From Candidatus Hydrogenedentota bacterium (GTDB lineage Bacteria > Hydrogenedentota > Hydrogenedentia > Hydrogenedentales > JAGMZX01): a stretch of 64,000 nt of DNA. The notes under the pieces are model-generated. The model was not told where the DNA came from, did not search any database, and saw only the letters and a program-made list of their open reading frames with translations. Numbering within the stretch: position 1 is the stretch's first letter; each line of letters starts with the position of its first letter. A program made the position numbers and the translations under genes. Where the stretch lies: contig JAKQEQ010000076.1 in assembly GCA_029556545.1 (NCBI GenBank), positions 61,231 through 125,230 of the forward strand. Reading direction: 5' to 3'. Shown piece by piece: positions 31,093 through 43,149 of this stretch.

Positions 31093-31169
31093 GGGCGGTT
31101 AGCTCAGTCGGTTAGAGCACCTGCTTTACACGCAGGGGGTCTGCGGTTCAAATCCGTAACCGCCCACCA
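31093..31169 (+). tRNA. tRNA-Val (TAC), island integration site
   Basis: Full cloverleaf: acceptor GGGCGGT pairs with ACCGCCC, the anticodon arm is CCTGC-TTTACAC-GCAGG with anticodon TAC, the T arm is TGCGG-TTCAAAT-CCGTA, and CCA is encoded. 77 nt. Its 3' half is duplicated at 41900-41951, showing that an element integrated here and regenerated the gene. Confidence 0.97.
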
Positions 31170-31174
31170 TTTTA
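31123..31174. repeat. attL-like direct repeat inside tRNA-Val
   Basis: 52 bases covering the anticodon loop to just past the CCA end. They match 41900-41951 with a single difference (C31131 versus A41908). Confidence 0.85.
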
Positions 31175-31180
31175 AGCATA

Positions 31181-31226
31181 AACGCGCCAGAAGGTTATGA
31201 AGACTAGCTTCTGGCGCGTTTTGTTT
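31181..31226 (+). terminator. Rho-independent terminator after tRNA-Val
   Basis: AACGCGCCAGAAG (31181-31193) and CTTCTGGCGCGTT (31208-31220) form a 13-bp stem with a 14-base loop, followed by TTGTTT. It could end the tRNA-Val transcript, and in the other orientation the synthase transcript. Confidence 0.75.
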
Positions 31227-31458
31227 GGAATCTCTGTGGTAAGTCCACAGTAAGTCCGGGCCGTGCAATTCCGCTCGAAAAACGACCTTCAGGCAGATGA
31301 CGCCACTCTTTTCGAAAGAGCCGCGAGTCTGGAAGTGAAGGTGGACCGCTCTTGGATCAATCTCCGAACTCAAAGAATCGAACCAACCTCTCCCCCACGC
31401 CAGAGTGCTTTCTAAGGCACGCGATTATCCACACCGTATGGGTTTTCGGCAACCACAA

Positions 31459-34400
31459 CTATACGAACATCGTAATCTGAACGTCGTGGTCTACCCTGTC
31501 GCCAACAAGCCGAATAGCCTTTTCAGGCTGCTCGATTCCGTCCACGGCCACTCGTTCGATGCCTTGGCCGCCGCCGGCACATTGGACAGCGATGTGATAG
31601 AACGTTTCCCTGTATCGGTAATGGACCTTGAAGGATGGCCACGTTGGCGGGATGCATGGTGCGAACCGAAGTGTATCGGCTTCCAACTGGAGCCCTAACA
31701 AAGACTCGGTGATTAGCCGATACATCCAACCGGACGAGCCGGTGTACCACGTCCATCCGCCACGGCCGGTATGAGGGGCGGCGGCGTAGACGTCAGCCGC
31801 CATAACATAGGGTTCCACTTTGTAGGTTTGCACGTGCTCTGGTGACACGCCGCGAGCGATTGGGTTCAGCAGGGCCAACAGTTCCCAGGCGCGCTTGAAG
31901 TCCCCGAGCCCCGCAAATGCCATAGCGGCCCAAATCGCCGCGTGCGTGTATTGTCCGCCATTTTCCCGCACGCCGGGAATGTATCCTTTTACATAACCCG
32001 GGTTGAGTTCCGACTTGTCGAATGGGGGGGCGAAAAGTTGAACGAGTTGTGAGTCTCGGTGTACCAGCCTGCGGTCAACACTGTCCATCGCGGACTGGGC
32101 GCGGCCGCGCTCGCCTGCTTGAGAGAGAACCGACCAGCTTTGTGGAATCGAGTCTATCTGGCACTCTAGGCTTTCCGCCGAGCCGAGCGGCTCGCCATTG
32201 TCGAAGAAGGCCCGCAGATACCATTCACCGTCCCATGCGGAGTCTTCCAGGTGAAGGCGCAACCGTCCCGCTTCGGTCAAGCACTTGTCAGCGAACGGGC
32301 TGTCGTCGCGTCGGCGGGCTTGTTCCGCGAATCGCGTCAGAACATCGTACAGGAAGAATCCCAGCCATACGCTCTCGCCCTTGCCCTGTTCCCCGACGAG
32401 ATTCATCCCGTCGTTCCAATCGCCGCTGCCCATCAATGGCAGGCCGTGGACCCCGAAACGCAGCCCGTTGTTGATCGCCCGCACGCAGTGTTCGTAAAGC
32501 GTTTCGACTTCGCCGGAGACCTGGGGCAGGTCGTAGTAGGAGTCCTCCTCCGGGCGCAGGGGGCGCCCGTTGAGGAACGGCACTCTTTCGTCCAGCACGC
32601 CTGTGTCCCCTGTGGCGGTCACGTACCGGCACGTGGCGTATGGCAACCATAGATAGTCATCGGAGCAGTGCGTTCGCACGCCGCGTCCTGACGGCGCGTG
32701 CCACCAATGTTGTACATCGCCATCGTGGAACTGCCTTGCTGCCGCGCGAAGCAGATGCGCGCGTAACAGGAGCGGTTCAGCGTGTACAAGCGCCATCGCA
32801 TCCTGTAGCTGGTCACGAAATCCATACGCGCCACCCGACTGGTAAAACCCCGTCCGCGCCCACATTCGGCACGAGAGGGTTTGGTACATGAGCCAGCCGT
32901 TCGCCAGGAAGTTGAGTGCCGGGTCGGGCGTTTCGACATACAGGACGCCCAGCGTCCGGCTCCAGTAATCCCATACGCCCTCCAGGGCCTGTTGCGCTGC
33001 CGCTATCCCCCTGGACTGCTGAATTATCGTCCGCGCCTGGTCTTCCGATTCTGCTGCTCCAAGAGTAAAGACTATTTCCCTTTCCTCCCCGTCATCCAAT
33101 TCCACCGCCACTTGCATCGCCGCGCACGGGTCGAGTCCGGCGCCCACGCGCCCGGAAAGACGGGTACGACTCAGGGCCGCCGGGTTCCCAGGAGTACCGT
33201 TACGGCCGAGGAATTCGGTACGGTCGGCCGTTATCGCCCGCGTGGTTTCGCTCGTCGCGGCGAACACCACCCGCTCGCCAAACTCCGAGTTGTAAGCGTT
33301 TCGCGCAAAGATCGCGCCGGTTACCGGATCAATCTCCGTAACAACATGCATGAGCGTCTTATCCCGCGACTCGCCCAACACCAGTTCCCAGTAAGCGGTG
33401 ACGGAGAGGCGTCGGGACCGGCCCGAGCGGTTCATAATCTTGAGCCGTGCGAACTTCACGGGGGAATCCATAGCGACGTACTGGGTCAACTCGCTGGCGA
33501 CATCATCTTCCTGGTACTCGAAGATGCTGTACCCGAAGCCGTGGCGGGCGACATACACCATGGCCCCGCGCGTGGGCTGAGGAGACGGAGACCAGACGCG
33601 GCCGCTTTCTTCGTCGCGGATGTACAGGGCTTCGCCGCCGCCGGCGGTGACCGCATCATTGCTCCAGGGCGTCAGACGAAAGTCGTGACTGTTCTCCGCC
33701 CACGTATAGACGCCTCCACTCTCCGACACGATCGTTCCGAACCGCGGGTTGGCGATAACGTTGATCCAGGGCGCGGGGGTGTTCTCGCCGGGGCTCAGAA
33801 TCATGATGTATTCGCGGCCGTCGTGTGTGAAGCCGCCGAGGCCGTTAAAGAACGCCAAGTCATACTGGGGCGTTTCCGGCGCGGCGGCTATGGGTTGACG
33901 GCGCACTGATTTTAGCATCGCGATTGGCGCCTGTCCCCGCCCGCGCCGCTCCATCGGTTTGAGCATCGCCATTGGCGCCTGTGCCCGCCCGCGCCGCTCC
34001 ACCTGCTCCGGCAGCGTCCCGGCATCATCCGCGAGCACAACACGCGCCACGGCCTGCAGGAGTATGCGGTCCTCTTCCGCAATCTGCTCCGCCCGGCGCA
34101 GAAACACGCCACCGGGCTTGTCCACCATGATCGCCTCGGAACTTGCCGCGATGAGGTTCACGATGGTGTCATGCAGTTCTTGGCGATAGACCGAATCGTC
34201 CTCGTTCCAAATGACCAAGTCTACGTTCAGTCCCTTCATCCGCCAGTACGCGTGTGCCTGGACCGCCTGACGAACCAGGTCAAGTCTCTCCCGGTCGCGG
34301 ATACGGACCAGGACGATGGGAAGGTCACCGGATATCCCATAGCCCCATAACCCTGACTGCCCGCGTCTATTTCGAACCAGGACGCTGGAACTAGACCGGT

Positions 34401-37400
34401 AGAGCGAAGTTGCGTAAATCACTGACCCTGCCAACCGCCCATACAGCTGCACCTCAGCCTCAACGGCGTTAAGGTGATGGAGCTCGGCATTGCTGTGAGT
34501 CCACGCCAGATCGAAGATACGGTCGGCGAGCCGGGGATCGTGATACTTATCCAGCAACGCCGTTGCCGCCTCGCGCGTCTCGGCGATGCCCGTGAGCAGG
34601 TCTATACGCGCGATTTCATTCGGCTGAATATGGACGGTGTGGCGGATGGAGACTGCGGGGTCAAGCACAGAGCCCTCGCTGTCCGACAATCGCCCGTCGC
34701 CGGCCATCGCCGCCGGCCAGGCCAATGTCCTGCCTCTCCCCACAAACTTGGTTCGGTCGGTCTCGAACGACGCCTCGCCACTTGCTTCGCCCTGCACCGT
34801 CATGAGGTGAACCATCCACGGCGGTTTCTCCGCCGCTGATCGGGGACGGCGAGTACAGAGGATGGCTTGGCGCGATCGCACGAGCTCCGTCTGCACAAAC
34901 AGGTTGCTGAACGCCGGATGGGCCACGTCTTGACCCGCCGGCGCCAGCACGACCTCCGCATAGCTGGTCAATTCAATGGTTCGTGGCTTGTCCGAGCGGT
35001 TGGTGAGGGTGATGCGGCGCAGTTCAACATCGTCCTCAGGCGAGACGCTGATTTCCGTGTGGGTTTCAATTTCGTCGTCCCGGCGGCGGAACTCGGCCTT
35101 CCCTTGCGCAAAGATTGCCTCATAAGATTGGGACGCCTGAAGGGCCGGCTGGTAACCGATGGACCAAAACCGCCGATTGTCCATGTCGCGCAAGTAACAG
35201 AACGTTCCCCAGCAATCGCGGGTCGGGTCTTCCCGCCACCTCGTAATCGCCAAATCACGCCATCGGCTGTATCCTCCACCGGCGCTGCTGACCATGACGT
35301 GATACCGCCCGTTGGAAAGGAGGTGCACCTCCGGCACACGGGTCCCCGGATCGGTGAGGACACGCATGGTCCCTTCCGCTTCGGCCGAAGCCGTACGTGT
35401 GACATTGGCCTCGACGGCGTGTGGAAAGATGGGCGCTGCTGTCTTGGGAATTCGTTCCTGCAGCAACAAACTGGTCGCCTGAAACGTGGGTTCCGCCTGA
35501 AAGCGCCTCTGCATCGGCCGGTCAAGCAGGAGGTATGCCAGCGACAGGAGGCTCATCCCTTCGTGGTGTGTCATAAAAGACCGGACTGTTGCGCTGTTGA
35601 CACCGATCGGCAGGCGGGACGGGGTGTAGTCGATTGCCTCGTAAAAACCGTAGGGACCTTGCCGCCCTTCGTCCGTGATGCGTTCCAGGTTACGGCATGC
35701 CGCCTCGGGCGCCACCATCAGAGCCATTACCGCGGCATACGGTGCAACAACGAGGTCCTCGGCCAATCCTCGCTTCAGTCCCAGCCCCGGAACGCCAAAG
35801 GCCCGGTACTGGTAATCCAGATGCACGTCCCAGGTGTTGAACCCGGACTCGGAAATCCCCCAAGGCACTCCACGCTGCCTCCCATATTGAATCTGCCGCC
35901 GAACAACCGCTTTGTACGTCTGATTCAATAGCGTGTTCTCGTAGGTCGGCATTACGAGCAGCGGCATGAGGTACTCGAACATAGAACCGTTCCAACTCAG
36001 CAACGCCGCCGCGCCTCTTGATGCAGTGAGCAGCCGGCCAAGGGTGAACCAATGCTCCTGGCCCAACTGCCCCTGAGAAATGGCAAAGAAGCTGGCGAGC
36101 CGGGCCTCAGACGCGAGAAGGTCGTAATACCCTTTGTCCAAGCGATGGTCGCCAACGTTGTAGCCAATAGAGAGCAGGTCGCGGGACTTATCAAACAGAA
36201 AGGAGAAGTCCATGTCCGAGAACTCACGGCATCGGTCTGCGGCCGCCTCCAGCGCCCGAATTCGGTCCAAGGCGTGCAGGGAAGCATCGAGGATTGCGCA
36301 ACGGAGACGGTCGAGCCAGTCGTTGACATCTAATTCATCTCGGGGCGCGGCGCCACTGGAATTCGGGCCACGGAGGCCCGCCAGAATCCCATCGATCTGC
36401 GGCAGTAACGATAGCTTCAGGGCCGCGATCTGGCGGAGCGTCGGGACACACTCAAGTTCTCCCAAGAATCTATGCACTTCGTCGAGCCGTTGAACCTGTT
36501 CGGCCGAGCCGTGCTGCCAGAGGCCCTCGGGCGGGGGCGGGAGCAGGGCCCACGGTGCAAGATGGGCGACGTCGTCACAATGATCGATGGCGCATTGCTC
36601 CAATGCCCGAGTCCAAGTTTGGCACTCCCCGTCCGGTCCGTCAACCGGGCCGAAACCGCTCGCCCAGTCCGCCACGCGCCTCAGAAGCAGGACCGAGGGG
36701 CTGAGGGCGCTTGGCGGGTCCCTCAATTCCTCCATCAGACGCTCGGCCTGCCGCAGGGCCTCTTTCGCGGACAAGCGGTCGAGAGCCGGCTCCCGCGCCT
36801 CGACAACTCCACGGACCCCGTCGATAAGTACCCGTGCCGTGTCCCGCACACCGTCAAACGTCCGTGCCGGCGGAATCTTCGTGTCGATCAGCTCCAATAA
36901 CCCGCGTCGCAGCACCAACAGGTGTCCGGCGAGGTTGCCGCTGTCCACTGTAGAGACGTACCGTGGCGGCAGGGGCCTGAGTGAATGCGTATCATACCAG
37001 TTGTAGAAGTGGCCGAGATGTCTCTCTAAGCGGCCCATAGTGGCGAGCGTGTTTTCAGTGCGCCGCAGTAGTTGCGCGGCGGAGCAGTAGCCGAAGTCAT
37101 ATGCGGCGAGGTTCGCGAGGAGCGACACCCCAATATTCGTCGGGCTGGTCCGCGAAGCGATTTTTTTTGCCGGATGCTCCTGGAAATTGTCCGGTGGAAG
37201 CCAGTGCTCCTCCGGCGTAACGAACACCTCGAAGTACCGCCACGTTCGGCGCGCAAGCTTTCTCAGGAAGACGACCTGTCCTTCGGAGAGTTGCGGTTCT
37301 CGTGCCGGGATGGGGCGGCTCAACCACCATGCGATGAGCGGTGAGACCATCCATAGCCCCAGGATAGGCGCGCAGACCGGCAGATGGCCCGGTTGCGACA

Positions 37401-40400
37401 GGGTTACGAGCGCGAGAACAACGGCCGCGCAAGTCGGCCCGACCCACATGGAGCGAAAATGCCCCCACGGGTCGGTGCGCGCGCGCGACTCGGCGTCGTG
37501 GGAGGTCGTCCACTCGAGCATCTTGCGGCGCGTCCAAAGCAGGCGCGTCAGCGTGCGTGCAATCGAATCCAAGCTGATGTAGGCATCGTACGGTATGGTC
37601 ACCACGGTGAAAAGAAATTGCCCCGACTGCCGGACGATTCCCGGTGCGAATGCGCGCGCGTGCATCCAGAAGGGCAGGTCCAGTGGTTTGCGCGTGAGGC
37701 TCGCTGCTCCAGACAAGACCGGTATCGCCACCAGTACCGCGATTACCAAGAGCGTTGCTCCCGTGGAAAACCACGTCCATGTCAGGAGCCACGCGAAACA
37801 CAGCAGCAGCAGCATAATCGGCGGCACGAGGCTGCGGCGGAGGTTGTCAAATATCTTCCACTTTGACAGTCCTGAAATCGGGTTCCGGGTCCGTCGTGCA
37901 TCTGAGCCGGGCACGCGCGGCGAGAGCCACCAGACGATCTGCCAGTCGCCGCGAATCCAGCGGCGGCGCCGGCTCACGTCCGCCGAATACTGGTACGGGT
38001 GGTCCTCATACACCTCGACGTCGGTCAGTAACGCCGATCGGGCGTAAGCGCTTTCCAACAGGTCATGGCTCAGGATAGCGTTGTCGGGAAGGCAAGAGCA
38101 GGCCCGGTGAAAGGTGGCGACGTCATAGATTCCCTTCCCGATGAACGACCCCTCGCCGAAGAGGTCCTGGTAGATATCGGAGACCGCCCGCGTGTAAGGG
38201 TCTAAACCTGAGTCGGCCGCAAAGAGACGGACGTACCAGGATCGTGACGCGCTCGGAAGGCTGGTCCCCACACGGGGTTGAATAATGCCGTAGCCGTCGA
38301 TAACCCGTTGCCGCTTCGTATCGAAGACGGGCCGGTTGAGTGGATGAGCCATTGCTTCGACCAACCCGCGCCCGGCATCCCGCGGTAGCTGGGTGTCCGT
38401 GTCCAGCGTAATGACATAACGGATTTCAGGGAAGACGGCCTTATCGCCGACAATCTCTTGGAAGGAATCGCTTGGTCCGCCGCGCAAGAGCGCGTTGAAT
38501 TCCTTCAATTTCCCCCTCTTGCGCTCATAGCCCATCCATACGTTGTCCTGCTCGTTCCATCGACGCGGCCGATGGAACAGGAAGAAAGCATCTGTCCGGT
38601 CGTTTTCATACTTTTCGTTTAGTGACTCGATTCCCTCGCGGACCTCGCGGATCAACTCCGCGTCCTCGGGCATCACCGCCTGTGGAGCATCTTTCAGGTC
38701 CGTGAGCAAGGCAAAATGCAGGTTCCTGTCACAATTGGCCACGTAATGGAGTTCAATCGTTTCCAGGAGATCATGAATCGCCCGCGCACTGGTGAGCATC
38801 GTGGGCACAACCACCATGGTTCTGTGTTCGGGCGGAATGCCATTGCGAAAGTCCATCCGCGGCAACAGCAATGGTCCTACGAAAACGGTGACGAGCCAAT
38901 TGACGACACCGATCGCCAGATGAAGCGCGCACATCAGAACGGGCAGCGACACCAGGGCCATTATCAATGGCGGGAGTTCCCCATGCGCCGCCCATGCAAC
39001 TAGACCGGCCATGAAGCACGCCGTCAGCACCACGACCCCGGACAGATAAAGGAATAAGGGATGATGGCGCGCACACTTCCGCAGCACCGCCGGCAGCGAC
39101 GATTTCACCGCCGCCGCCTGCTCCAAGGCCATGCGGCCCTTGTCGATAAGGTAGTACCCGACATGGGCCTTGCGGTTGTCTTGCGGGTCGAAGGAGGCCG
39201 TTTCGGCGAGCCGAATCGCCTTGCGCGCGACTTCGTCCTGCGTCAGCAAGCTGCGCTTGGCGATCTCCTCGACGCGGTGACGATAACGGTCCCGTGTGGC
39301 AAAATCCATAGTGGCGTATACACCAGCCGGATCACTTCGTAGCGTCCGCTCGACGACGCTCTGGTCCTCGACGAACTCGCGCCAATCAGTCAGGCTGAGA
39401 AATCGCAGGCTGGTAATGGTGTTGCCGATGGATACCTGGTCAACGGCCTGCATCTGGCTTTCCATTTGTACTAGATGGGCGATCTTCGACCCCTGTTCGG
39501 AGACACGATGCTCCAGCCAGCTTTGGGCAAACGCAAAGTGAGGACTCTGCCCGTGCAGGTGTCGCGTCAACTCCGCCAGAAAGGCGCTGGACAACGGTGG
39601 GTTCGCCCGCGCCATGTCCGCCAGTACGAGAATCAGGTCGGAGGGGTTTTGCTCGACGACACTCACCATCCGCTCGCCCCAATCCGTGGCCAAACCTCGA
39701 TCCCGCAGACTCGCGGACAAACGCATGGCCACGCGCCGCAGGTTCTCGATCAGCGCCAAGCGAAGCATGATCGGAACGGCCCAGAGCTCTCCCAGGGTCA
39801 AGGGTGTGACGGCCTGGTACGAGGACACGAACGCGTTGAGGCTGGTGGTATCCACACCGCCATCCACATGCGAGATCAGCTCCATCGCGATGCTGTAGAC
39901 TCGGGGATACCCCGTCGCGGGGCCTTTCGCCAGACGGGGCAAGCCCTTGCTGTAAGATGGCGGTAGATGCCGGCGCGCGGTGCGGATTTGTTCCTCGATC
40001 ACGTGAAAATTGTCCAGCAGCCATTCCGCCGCCGGCACAATGCGGTGATTCTTCTCCACAGCCGCTGTGACCAAGTCATACGTGCGGACCAATGTCCGCT
40101 GGTTCTCTTCCAGTCTCCGGATGAGCCGGTCGGACGCGGTTCCCCGCGCGAGTTTGTGCAGGCCCGCCAGTGCCTGGGCGTGATGCTCCAGCTGACTGAC
40201 GCTGTAAAGCTCGGCCCGGAGCGGCTGCTCATCCTTCGGCAACTGCGGTTGACCATCGCCGCCAAGGGACTGATACCAGTCTGCCAACCGCTGCAGCCGC
40301 AGTTTGATTCCAGGCGGAGGCCCGAGCAATACGGTCACCTTTCCGTGTGTTGAGTTCCGCGGCGCCGCGACGGCCGAAACGCGTAAGCGAACATGGTCGA

Positions 40401-40422
40401 AGGAGGAAGGCAGACAGTGCAA
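31459..40422 (-). CDS. Cyclic beta-1,2-glucan synthase (GT84/GH94, NdvB/Cgs type)
   Basis: A giant membrane enzyme of 2987 residues that starts, extends and cyclises beta-1,2-glucan, a periplasmic osmoprotectant and host-interaction glycan. The N-terminal helical region contains LLDNFHVIEEQIRTARRHLP, followed by two membrane segments at about 455-530. The GT84 domain has ITLDTDTQLP and the RRRRWIRGDW block, with further helices after it. Two GH94-related halves follow, the last with SGDWNDGMNLVG, the catalytic Asp region of glycan phosphorylases, which sets chain length. A near-perfect 48-bp duplication at 33910-34005 gives a repeated ERRGR-QAP-AMLK linker. Length is close to known Cgs proteins. 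It lies alone on its strand within the island. Confidence 0.93.
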   Translation of the reverse strand: MHCLPSSFDHVRLRVSAVAAPRNSTHGKVTVLLGPPPGIKLRLQRLADWYQSLGGDGQPQLPKDEQPLRAELYSVSQLEHHAQALAGLHKLARGTASDRLIRRLEENQRTLVRTYDLVTAAVEKNHRIVPAAEWLLDNFHVIEEQIRTARRHLPPSYSKGLPRLAKGPATGYPRVYSIAMELISHVDGGVDTTSLNAFVSSYQAVTPLTLGELWAVPIMLRLALIENLRRVAMRLSASLRDRGLATDWGERMVSVVEQNPSDLILVLADMARANPPLSSAFLAELTRHLHGQSPHFAFAQSWLEHRVSEQGSKIAHLVQMESQMQAVDQVSIGNTITSLRFLSLTDWREFVEDQSVVERTLRSDPAGVYATMDFATRDRYRHRVEEIAKRSLLTQDEVARKAIRLAETASFDPQDNRKAHVGYYLIDKGRMALEQAAAVKSSLPAVLRKCARHHPLFLYLSGVVVLTACFMAGLVAWAAHGELPPLIMALVSLPVLMCALHLAIGVVNWLVTVFVGPLLLPRMDFRNGIPPEHRTMVVVPTMLTSARAIHDLLETIELHYVANCDRNLHFALLTDLKDAPQAVMPEDAELIREVREGIESLNEKYENDRTDAFFLFHRPRRWNEQDNVWMGYERKRGKLKEFNALLRGGPSDSFQEIVGDKAVFPEIRYVITLDTDTQLPRDAGRGLVEAMAHPLNRPVFDTKRQRVIDGYGIIQPRVGTSLPSASRSWYVRLFAADSGLDPYTRAVSDIYQDLFGEGSFIGKGIYDVATFHRACSCLPDNAILSHDLLESAYARSALLTDVEVYEDHPYQYSADVSRRRRWIRGDWQIVWWLSPRVPGSDARRTRNPISGLSKWKIFDNLRRSLVPPIMLLLLCFAWLLTWTWFSTGATLLVIAVLVAIPVLSGAASLTRKPLDLPFWMHARAFAPGIVRQSGQFLFTVVTIPYDAYISLDSIARTLTRLLWTRRKMLEWTTSHDAESRARTDPWGHFRSMWVGPTCAAVVLALVTLSQPGHLPVCAPILGLWMVSPLIAWWLSRPIPAREPQLSEGQVVFLRKLARRTWRYFEVFVTPEEHWLPPDNFQEHPAKKIASRTSPTNIGVSLLANLAAYDFGYCSAAQLLRRTENTLATMGRLERHLGHFYNWYDTHSLRPLPPRYVSTVDSGNLAGHLLVLRRGLLELIDTKIPPARTFDGVRDTARVLIDGVRGVVEAREPALDRLSAKEALRQAERLMEELRDPPSALSPSVLLLRRVADWASGFGPVDGPDGECQTWTRALEQCAIDHCDDVAHLAPWALLPPPPEGLWQHGSAEQVQRLDEVHRFLGELECVPTLRQIAALKLSLLPQIDGILAGLRGPNSSGAAPRDELDVNDWLDRLRCAILDASLHALDRIRALEAAADRCREFSDMDFSFLFDKSRDLLSIGYNVGDHRLDKGYYDLLASEARLASFFAISQGQLGQEHWFTLGRLLTASRGAAALLSWNGSMFEYLMPLLVMPTYENTLLNQTYKAVVRRQIQYGRQRGVPWGISESGFNTWDVHLDYQYRAFGVPGLGLKRGLAEDLVVAPYAAVMALMVAPEAACRNLERITDEGRQGPYGFYEAIDYTPSRLPIGVNSATVRSFMTHHEGMSLLSLAYLLLDRPMQRRFQAEPTFQATSLLLQERIPKTAAPIFPHAVEANVTRTASAEAEGTMRVLTDPGTRVPEVHLLSNGRYHVMVSSAGGGYSRWRDLAITRWREDPTRDCWGTFCYLRDMDNRRFWSIGYQPALQASQSYEAIFAQGKAEFRRRDDEIETHTEISVSPEDDVELRRITLTNRSDKPRTIELTSYAEVVLAPAGQDVAHPAFSNLFVQTELVRSRQAILCTRRPRSAAEKPPWMVHLMTVQGEASGEASFETDRTKFVGRGRTLAWPAAMAGDGRLSDSEGSVLDPAVSIRHTVHIQPNEIARIDLLTGIAETREAATALLDKYHDPRLADRIFDLAWTHSNAELHHLNAVEAEVQLYGRLAGSVIYATSLYRSSSSVLVRNRRGQSGLWGYGISGDLPIVLVRIRDRERLDLVRQAVQAHAYWRMKGLNVDLVIWNEDDSVYRQELHDTIVNLIAASSEAIMVDKPGGVFLRRAEQIAEEDRILLQAVARVVLADDAGTLPEQVERRGRAQAPMAMLKPMERRGRGQAPIAMLKSVRRQPIAAAPETPQYDLAFFNGLGGFTHDGREYIMILSPGENTPAPWINVIANPRFGTIVSESGGVYTWAENSHDFRLTPWSNDAVTAGGGEALYIRDEESGRVWSPSPQPTRGAMVYVARHGFGYSIFEYQEDDVASELTQYVAMDSPVKFARLKIMNRSGRSRRLSVTAYWELVLGESRDKTLMHVVTEIDPVTGAIFARNAYNSEFGERVVFAATSETTRAITADRTEFLGRNGTPGNPAALSRTRLSGRVGAGLDPCAAMQVAVELDDGEEREIVFTLGAAESEDQARTIIQQSRGIAAAQQALEGVWDYWSRTLGVLYVETPDPALNFLANGWLMYQTLSCRMWARTGFYQSGGAYGFRDQLQDAMALVHAEPLLLRAHLLRAAARQFHDGDVQHWWHAPSGRGVRTHCSDDYLWLPYATCRYVTATGDTGVLDERVPFLNGRPLRPEEDSYYDLPQVSGEVETLYEHCVRAINNGLRFGVHGLPLMGSGDWNDGMNLVGEQGKGESVWLGFFLYDVLTRFAEQARRRDDSPFADKCLTEAGRLRLHLEDSAWDGEWYLRAFFDNGEPLGSAESLECQIDSIPQSWSVLSQAGERGRAQSAMDSVDRRLVHRDSQLVQLFAPPFDKSELNPGYVKGYIPGVRENGGQYTHAAIWAAMAFAGLGDFKRAWELLALLNPIARGVSPEHVQTYKVEPYVMAADVYAAAPHTGRGGWTWYTGSSGWMYRLITESLLGLQLEADTLRFAPCIPPTWPSFKVHYRYRETFYHIAVQCAGGGQGIERVAVDGIEQPEKAIRLVGDRVDHDVQITMFV
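33910..34005. repeat. 48-bp tandem duplication within the glucan synthase gene
   Basis: Two adjacent copies (33910-33957 and 33958-34005) that differ at only a few bases encode ERRGRAQAPMAMLK and ERRGRGQAPIAMLK in an interdomain linker. The frame is kept. Confidence 0.8.
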
Positions 40423-40530
40423 AGGGGAAAAGGTATCTGCTCTACCTGCGTCTTTAGTCAGCGAATCCGATTATACACCGTTAGTAAGACAGAATCTACA
40501 GGACTTCCCCCAAGAATAGGAGAGGCGACA

Positions 40531-40680
40531 ATGCTCGAGACATTAGCGGTCATCCTGATTGTTCTGTGGCTACTTGGTTTGCTCACCTCGACCACCATGG
40601 GCGGGCTGATACACGCGCTCTTGGTCATCGCGCTCATCGTGATAGTGCTTCGCGTCCTTCAAGGACGAAGCGCCCTGTAG
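40531..40680 (+). CDS. Lmo0937-family small membrane protein
   Basis: A 49-residue protein with two hydrophobic stretches, starting MLETLAVILIVLWLLGLLTS and ending VLRVLQGRSAL. This matches the short Lmo0937-type membrane proteins found across soil bacteria, function unknown. A strong ribosome binding site (AGGAGAGG) precedes the ATG. Divergent from the glucan synthase and followed by another small membrane protein gene, so possibly part of an envelope-stress cargo. Confidence 0.8.
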   Translation: MLETLAVILIVLWLLGLLTSTTMGGLIHALLVIALIVIVLRVLQGRSAL

Positions 40681-40812
40681 CGATCGAGCAATGGTTCGTC
40701 GGAGCGCGACAGCGAGCGCGTGTTACCGCTGCTCGGTGTACGGGTTGTGCGTGTCGTTCTCCGTCGCATCGCGCGACGGAGATTTACGGATTCCTCAACT
40801 GGAGAAGAAGAG

Positions 40813-41034
40813 ATGAATACATACATGATAGTGGCGGTTGTACTGATCGTGGCGGGTATTCTGGGGCTGGTGTATGGCCAATTCAGCTACACCAAGGATT
40901 CGGAAACCGCTAAGCTGGGTCCGATCCAACTCACCGTTAACGAGAAAGAGACGGTCAACATTCCCGTCTGGGCCGGCGCGGGGGCCATTGTCGCGGGCGT
41001 GGCGATGTTAGTCTTTGCGCTTATGAAGCACTAG
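40813..41034 (+). CDS. Small two-helix membrane protein
   Basis: A 73-residue protein with helices at the start (YMIVAVVLIVAGILGLVYG) and the end (AGAIVAGVAMLVFALM), separated by a loop with KLGPIQLTVNEKETVNIPVW. This pattern is seen in small conserved membrane proteins of environmental bacteria; the function is unknown. The start at 40813 has GGAG upstream. The frame is open to 40720, but that stretch has no matching features. Confidence 0.75.
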   Translation: MNTYMIVAVVLIVAGILGLVYGQFSYTKDSETAKLGPIQLTVNEKETVNIPVWAGAGAIVAGVAMLVFALMKH

Positions 41035-41138
41035 CGTAGATAAACGCGCCGCCCCTCGCCCCGTTGAAACAGCAGATGACAATGGTGTAAGCGTCCTGTG
41101 AAGTACAGGGTGCTTTCCTGGGGGTAGACGCCCGGGGT

Positions 41139-41386
41139 TTGGCTCAGGACGCGAGGGTGGCTTTCCAGCGGTCGGGGACGCGGACGTGCGGCGTAGCGGC
41201 GGCAACACGGCTGTACCGCGAACGCTATGTCCGGGAGTTTCTCACGTTCAGGTTCGGCGGAGAGCCCGTCGAACTGGGTGCGCTGAGGCCCGAGGACGTC
41301 ATCGCCTTCGTGACACACCGGAGCACGCCAAAGCAAGCGACACCTACTGGTACTTGATGGCCACAGCGCTGCGCTGCCGGAAGTAA
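41139..41386 (+). pseudogene. Remnant of a tyrosine-type integrase (N-terminal SAM-like domain)
   Basis: The segment encoding LYRERYVREFLTFRFGGEPVELGALRPEDVIAFV has the look of the core-binding domain of phage-type integrases. Continuity then requires a frame change, because TYWYLMATALRCRK follows in another frame. No catalytic domain with the Arg-His-Arg-Tyr residues remains. It lies close to the right end of the island, where the integrase of such elements is expected. Confidence 0.6.
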
Positions 41387-41899
41387 GAGCGGTCCCCCAA
41401 CCGTCCTACCACCTCTTCTCCCGGCTATCGCCTACCGTGCTGACGATACGCTACCTGCTGCTGCCGGTGGACCAACGGACGGAGGCGAACAAGGAATATG
41501 CCGGTAAGAAACGGACACACCGCGGGGGTCGGCAGAAGGTGGTAGCATGAGTAGGACCATGTGTCGTCGTCCCGATTCCACTGTAGCTGCCCGCGCAGTG
41601 GCCCGAAATACATGCGGCACATCGGCGCGGCTTGATTCTACGACGGCGTGTATCGTATACACAGTATGTGTAAGCGATATCGCTTCGCTGATGGCGAAAG
41701 CTGTTGTTCAGCCTGACTTGCCGGCAGGAAGTGGAACTCCCGCTCGAAAGGCAGGAGGTCAGCCGTATAACATTTCGTATAACATTTTGCCCCAGATTTG
41801 GCTTCTCGGGGCAATTGGTGACAGTTTTGGGTTTCTGTAAGTTGTTGGAGTGGCAGGTACTTACTGCTTCTGGCAACTTGTGACGTTACCCCTTGAGAC
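41387..41899. other. Degenerate right end of the island
   Basis: About 500 bases with broken reading frames between the integrase remnant and the right attachment repeat. One frame ends in a basic tail (EYAGKKRTHRGGRQKVVA, up to about 41550) that could be another gene remnant, but no family is recognisable. Confidence 0.4.
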
Positions 41900-41951
41900 G
41901 CTTTACAAGCAGGGGGTCTGCGGTTCAAATCCGTAACCGCCCACCATTTTA
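41900..41951. repeat. attR-like direct repeat: 3' half of tRNA-Val
   Basis: Copy of the 3' half of tRNA-Val including T arm and CCA, followed by TTTTA, identical to 31123-31174 except for one base. The 5' half of the tRNA is absent, so this is not a functional tRNA. Confidence 0.85.
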
Positions 41952-42388
41952 CTTTCACTCGAAATTCTCTATCCGCAAGGTCTCGGCGGTGTGCGCGTCC
42001 ATCACAATGGATCGTACACCGCCCTTTGTTTACGGGCTTTTCGTGATGTGTCCTCTCTGAGACAGCGTCTTTTTCAACGTGCCTCCGATCACACATCTTT
42101 CCCTTCCTGAACCCCGATCCGTCTCTTTTCTCGCGCCTTTTCTCTGTTTCAACGTGTCCACCCCCTTCGGCGACCCGTTGTTGCGATACAACGACTTACG
42201 AACACGGTTTTCGTTTTCCGAACTGATTTCGCATCGAGTAGGTTTTTTTCGCGGAAAATCTATTGTCCCCGCGTGTCTCCGAGAAATTCCGCATAAAGAA
42301 AGCCCCGCATCCCTTTCACGAACGTGTCCGGTAGTTAACCGACGGACGCCGCTTGCTTGTGGCGCCGAAGGACTCCCGGAGACATCGC
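41952..42388. other. AT-rich, pyrimidine-rich intergenic region
   Basis: About 440 bases next to the right attachment repeat, distinctly AT-rich and pyrimidine-rich on the plus strand. A short motif TTTCAACGTG occurs twice. No gene is supported. Confidence 0.4.
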
Positions 42389-42523
42389 ATGGACACACTC
42401 ACCACCGACCCGGAACTCATGACACCGCAGGAGCGGCAGCGCGAAGTTGCGGCGCTCCTTGCGCGCGTCACACAGAATACGCCGCGCCGGTCCAAGTCGT
42501 ACAAGTGCTCGAAATCCACGTAG
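42389..42523 (+). pseudogene. 5' fragment of a small conserved ORF, truncated by transposase debris
   Basis: ATG with a GGAG box starts MDTLTTDPELMTPQERQREVAALLARV, similar in style to small proteins often found next to recombinases in Planctomycetes-like genomes. After about residue 27 the sequence becomes antisense transposase, so the native C-terminus is gone. The remaining frame ends at 42523. Confidence 0.5.
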
Positions 42524-43149
42524 GCCTTGTCAAACAGCACGATTTCGCCCGCGCCGATGTCCGCGTAGAGTTCGCGCGCGCGTCTGTTGTCGTTGTGGCC
42601 GGCCGTGACGACGATGGCGAACTTCGGAAAGAAGCTCTGAAGATCCAGACACATGTGCAATTTTACCGCGGCCTTCTTGCGCCGCTCCTTGGCCCAGTCC
42701 ATACATTTCGCGATGAGTTGAATGGTGCTGGGGTCGACCACGTGGATCATGCGTTTAAAACGGTGGGGAAATCTCCGGTACGTCTTGCCGCCGAACGAAG
42801 GGCAGATCGCCGCGAGATGATGGAACACCGATCAGAACAGATCTTCGGCGATCTGCGCCGAACGGATCTTGTTGGCGTGCGAGAGGGTATTGCGCGCGGG
42901 CGGCGTTGCGCTTCGGATGGCCGACAACTTGCTCAAGTGCATGCGTATGCCGTCGCACACGTCGTTCAATCCTATCGCGTGCAAGGGTTGCACGCAGAGC
43001 AGCGCTACTATACGGCTCCACAAACTGAAGGTGCGTGCCTGCTCGTCCACGGCGTACTTGCGGGCCAGCTACGCCACGAGGTGGCCAGGGATGTACATGC
43101 ATATCTGCTGCAATGTGCTAAACTTCGACCGGGATGATTTCATGGCCAT
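42460..43149 (-). pseudogene. IS4-family transposase with two in-frame stops (DUF4372-type N-terminus)
   Basis: In a single frame from ATG 43149: an N-terminal region with SKFSTLQQICMYIPGHLVA, a stop TAG at 43069-43071, then KYAVDEQARTFSLWS and LSKLSAIRSATPPARNTLSHANK (DUF4372-like). A second stop, TGA at 42832-42834, stands where Trp is expected. The DDE core follows with MIHVVDPSTIQL, KLHMCLDLQSFFP and VLFDKAYVDFEHL. The C-terminus with the last acidic residue is missing after about 42460. No terminal inverted repeats are evident. A decayed insertion sequence. Confidence 0.8.

Follow-up and report, generated by a model that had tools for sequence, protein, structure and literature searches.

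The window analysed here is a stretch of 64,000 nucleotides on a 125-kb contig from the 6.1-Mb draft assembly of an uncultured Hydrogenedentota bacterium. It carries an intact tRNA-Val(TAC) gene on the plus strand at 31093-31169 (31093-31169 by ARAGORN, 31093-31166 by Rfam), which is the single full-length match to this tRNA in the assembly. A 52-nt sequence consisting of the last 47 bases of this gene, from the anticodon loop to the 3' end, followed by TTTTA (31123-31174, plus strand; attL), recurs in the same orientation at 41900-41951 (plus strand; attR), 10,777 bp away, with 51 of the 52 positions identical. Besides the gene itself, the 6.1-Mb assembly matches tRNA-Val(TAC) only at this second copy. 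When the 52-mer was compared without gaps along the window, the best places had 52 and 51 matches, followed by 29, 28 and 27, and the reverse strand reached 29 at most; the places with 29 and 28 matches are the other two tRNAs of the window. Because the next-best match is 29/52, a chance origin of the repeat is excluded, and an earlier sequence-only reading of the locus, as 52 bases of tRNA-Val repeated at 41900-41951 with one mismatch and enclosing about 10.8 kb, is borne out. The mismatch is a C to A change at anticodon-loop position 38 in the displaced copy, and the tRNA-Val copies of 13/13 relatives have C at this position. A single mismatch suggests that the insertion may be fairly recent, on a length of 52 bases that is too short for dating.

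Inside the repeats are a giant minus-strand gene, two small plus-strand genes and approximately 0.86 kb of scrap. An intrinsic-terminator-like hairpin (31181-31222, plus strand; folding energy about -32 kcal/mol) stands in island DNA directly after the tRNA. The DNA at 31175-31480, which includes this hairpin, has no match in the other 67 of the 68 genomes compared and is particular among them to the window genome. The same segment has an 8-nt direct repeat, GTAAGTCC, with 11-bp spacing (31239-31257, plus strand), a possible arm-type site of an integrase; an 8-nt pair of this kind occurs in 29 of 2000 shuffled versions of the left segment. Short direct repeats spaced by 11-12 bp near both island ends could conceivably be old integrase arm sites. 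Base composition was dropped as a sign of foreign origin, since the island, with a G+C of about 0.60, does not stand out clearly from its flanks.

The giant gene (31459-40422, minus strand) is an uninterrupted open reading frame of 2987 codons for a glucan synthase, NdvB (Pfam; PDB 8rf0/8rf9), which upholds the earlier description of the main cargo as a single giant gene. Pfam finds in it a glycosyltransferase (GT) domain, a glucoamylase-like domain, a GH94 supersandwich and a GH94 catalytic domain, and the motifs DTD (674-676), SHD (787), RRRRW, DPY with Tyr743, and GDWNDG are conserved. The residues that serve UDP binding and catalysis in the Agrobacterium enzyme are present; D674, D676, D787, the RW of RRRRWIRGDW and Y743 align with its D624, D626, D739, R773 and Y694, the last of which carries the glucan primer (PMC10901819). 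The two enzymes thus have in common the full domain order, the GT motifs, an equivalent of the primer tyrosine and the GH94 GDWNDG motif, whereas the window NdvB differs in having a predicted product, in belonging to an uncultured Hydrogenedentota host, in lying on a tRNA island and in adjoining two small membrane-protein genes (PMC10901819). Most likely it works at the inner membrane, where it would build beta-1,2-glucan from UDP-glucose and close it into rings, and the predicted product would most likely act in osmotic or envelope stress. Within the gene, a 48-bp tandem duplication at 33910-34005 (90% identical, in frame) duplicates approximately 16 residues.

The first of the two small genes (40531-40680, plus strand; Pfam) encodes a 49-aa membrane protein of the DUF5670/lmo0937 family, and the second (40813-41034, plus strand) a 73-aa membrane protein with a weak DUF202 match; both kinds occur near NdvB in relatives. 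Homologues of one or both are found near NdvB in four other Hydrogenedentota genomes (G056, G047, G041 and G029), and in records from Myxococcota, Betaproteobacteria and Verrucomicrobia a DUF5670/lmo0937-type gene is no more than about 3 kb from NdvB (L121:9559-9642, L170:8542-8688 and L190:1416-1559). This association in relatives and in other phyla suggests that NdvB and the small membrane-protein genes form a functional cassette.

Immediately to the right of attR is a pre-existing chromosomal neighbour of the island, an interspersed repeat some 390 bp long (41952-42333, plus strand). It is followed by the cut-off 5' remnant (134 bp; 42334-42467, plus strand) of a DUF2924/serine-recombinase element and by the remnant of an IS4-type DDE transposase (42477-42805, minus strand; DDE_Tnp_1, E 3.4e-6). 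In G001, the sole same-genus genome compared, the repeat on contig C121 (L091:7728-10692) adjoins the intact operon, comprising DUF2924, a serine recombinase and a ParB-HTH-like gene, of which the window keeps only the first 134 bp beside the transposase remnant. In several Hydrogenedentota families copies of the repeat begin at the 3' ends of tRNA-Val(TAC), tRNA-Val(GAC) and tRNA-Ala(GGC) genes, following CCACCATTTT(A/G); in G001 they stand after tRNA-Val(GAC) and tRNA-Ala(GGC), and in G021 after tRNA-Val(GAC). Some copies have no tRNA and are preceded by a conserved 38-nt leader ending CCACCATTTTA, like AGATTTTCCGAGTCCAGGACGGAATCCTCCACCATTTTA. The repeat also holds a strong hairpin of about -30 kcal/mol (41952-42333; L071:10070-10225, L088, L089, L087, L094).

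On the basis of the starts after CCACCATTTT(A/G) of three tRNAs and of the intact operon in G001, the repeat might be taken for a family that targets tRNA 3' ends and is moved by the DUF2924-linked serine recombinase, so that the island would have entered a tRNA already occupied in this way. We think this improbable; such targeting, if true, would be unusual, because the targeting of tRNA genes is described as confined to tyrosine recombinases (PMC4383910). The mobile appearance of the repeat, which has several copies in G001 and other genomes, some of them tRNA-less, also bears on whether 41900-41951 is the att site of the cassette at all, or a tRNA-Val relic of separate origin that came with the right-hand repeat. 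The relic explanation has very little to recommend it, as the tRNA-less copies bear their different leader and not a tRNA-Val(TAC) half, whereas the fragment matches the local tRNA at 51/52 from the anticodon loop to the 3' end and shares TTTTA with it, which is what duplication of an att site predicts.

With the island removed, the window would read as tRNA-Val-TTTTA-CTTTCACTCG, and a tRNA-Val(TAC) joined directly to the right-flank sequence is found in two relatives. In G009 this sequence stands directly after tRNA-Val(TAC); the match begins within the tRNA and extends for 206 bp at 83% identity. In G031 tRNA-Val(TAC) runs straight into the sequence that now lies right of 41951. Because this flank is the interspersed repeat, which also occurs after other tRNAs or without a tRNA, both comparisons carry less weight than a match to unique flanking DNA. 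To this extent the expectation that island-free relatives would have tRNA-Val joined to the right-flank DNA has support across families of the order, though none from the species or genus itself. In G001 tRNA-Val(TAC) is located elsewhere, beside an rnd-like gene (the rnd gene of the window genome has no tRNA-Val beside it), and the neighbours of the left flank are split over two other contigs; with synteny broken in this way, an empty site at the same locus was not found in G001. At the tRNA-Val(TAC) of G001, on contig C9 (L062:1-6938), another insert is present instead; it encodes an intact tyrosine recombinase domain, and the contig terminates in a 27-nt piece of tRNA-Val.

The layout corresponds to the islands catalogued by Islander, in which the tRNA gene (tDNA) is intact, a 3' fragment is displaced downstream in the same orientation, the length is 2-200 kb and an intact integrase is required; crossover in the anticodon stem-loop is one of the options recorded for islands at tRNA genes (PMC4383910). 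Here, too, an intact tRNA gene is followed downstream by its displaced 3' fragment in the same orientation, the length of 10.8 kb is within the range, and the identity begins in the anticodon arm. Unlike the Islander examples (PMC4383910), this island has no intact tyrosine integrase gene inside, only a 56-aa RitA-like fragment, and for this reason it is filed as a decayed and not as an active island. The segment 31093-41951 is a real tRNA-Val genomic island, decayed, with well-defined ends and an intact single-enzyme cargo.

The recombinase fragment near the right end (41172-41339, plus strand) is a truncated piece of about 56 aa from a RitA-like tyrosine recombinase, for which Pfam gives no match. 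Its plasmid relatives are of RIT type only, at no more than 51% identity. In the three clearest plasmid records the relative is the first of an overlapping trio of tyrosine recombinases, and in two further records it heads a partly annotated array; the first gene of the trio is the RitA position of RIT (recombinase-in-trio) elements (PMC3414803). While the fragment resembles this first recombinase, the window differs from RIT elements (PMC3414803) in having the fragment only: no RitB or RitC was identified, and three adjacent, overlapping tyrosine recombinase genes, which define a RIT, are not present. The 90 bp adjoining the fragment (41087-41176, plus strand) are a fragment of an interspersed repeat that recurs elsewhere in this genome, on contigs C63 and C150, and also in G001. 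Both its RitA-like type and this adjoining repeat indicate that the scrap is probably unrelated to integration of the island. What had been called a broken integrase is thus indeed a broken, recombinase-like fragment, but one of approximately 56 RitA-like residues and not a typical tRNA-island integrase. The proposed search for intact copies elsewhere came back empty in the 68 genomes compared from the order and phylum, and viral contigs yielded no relatives of the fragment. Inside the island we found neither an intact integrase gene nor anything that could be recognised as left over from an integrase of the usual tRNA-targeting kind.

That the sole recombinase trace inside is RitA-like raises the question of whether RIT activity, homologous recombination or an IS brought the cassette into the pre-existing tRNA-Val att pair of another island. 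Two islands may share a tRNA type, as the G001 tRNA-Val with its intact-recombinase element and 27-nt fragment illustrates, and NdvB loci elsewhere have no tRNA-Val. Set against this, no composite-transposon ends or complete RIT bound the cassette, and no matched direct repeat other than that of the tRNA spans it. We regard such a second-hand arrival as unlikely.

Site-specific integration at tRNA-Val, with the gene restored, its 3' end displaced and the integration module later lost, is the origin that we consider probable. The proposed mobile element, with the 3' part of a tRNA-Val gene in its attP, would have integrated by site-specific recombination in the region from the anticodon loop to the 3' end, restoring tRNA-Val at the left junction and pushing the original 3' end to 41900-41951. 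The integration module would have been lost afterwards, and other mobile-DNA fragments, the RitA-like piece and the repeat fragment, would now lie near the right end. We infer that the agent was a tyrosine integrase and that it was later lost, and the donor likewise. It is plausible that the island is now fixed (immobile), as the sequence-only reading held, given that it holds no intact recombinase; an integrase supplied in trans might nevertheless mobilise it.

The cargo has a patchy distribution. Of 61 genomes compared, 9 have a complete or almost complete NdvB (the G028 copy is cut by the contig end), and it was not found in G001. At the nine other Hydrogenedentota NdvB loci examined there is no tRNA-Val in the vicinity. 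Among these loci, G041 alone has a pair of tRNAs, which follows NdvB after about 0.9 kb and has no second copy on the contig; at this locus (L065:11523-12509) that distance separates the end of NdvB from the 3' end of a tRNA-Leu(TAA), and the contig breaks off on the opposite side. The G041 locus is possibly a second tRNA island.

Relative to the window, NdvB of G056 is 82% identical and RpoB 77%, the values for G044 are 79% and 73% (both genomes belong to other families), and in G029 NdvB is 54% identical and RpoB 81%. In a quick tree the window NdvB is nested in a phylum-specific clade drawn from several families, with G029 outside it. Given the patchy spread and the discord between NdvB and RpoB identities, the simplest reading of these sequence comparisons is that NdvB was transferred within the phylum. 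An alternative is that NdvB is ancestral in the order and inherited vertically with many losses, only its neighbours having changed; in its favour, all but one of the Hydrogenedentota NdvBs fall in one clade. Yet identity runs against RpoB in both directions (82% vs 77% in G056, 54% vs 81% in G029), the gene is missing from the same-genus G001, and in the window it lies between att repeats. Vertical descent with uneven loss is therefore less likely than transfer within the phylum, and we rate it as rather doubtful. It concerns the origin of the cargo and is compatible with the island reading.

A literature search turned up no report of tRNA islands of this kind in Hydrogenedentota. The island otherwise fits the textbook mechanism and is a fairly ordinary, clear genomic island, which is now set apart from the recombinase scrap earlier taken for its integrase. 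Its significance lies in the transfer, by way of a tRNA island, of a complete single-gene pathway, a predicted cyclic glucan synthase of about 330 kDa, in the uncultured phylum Hydrogenedentota.
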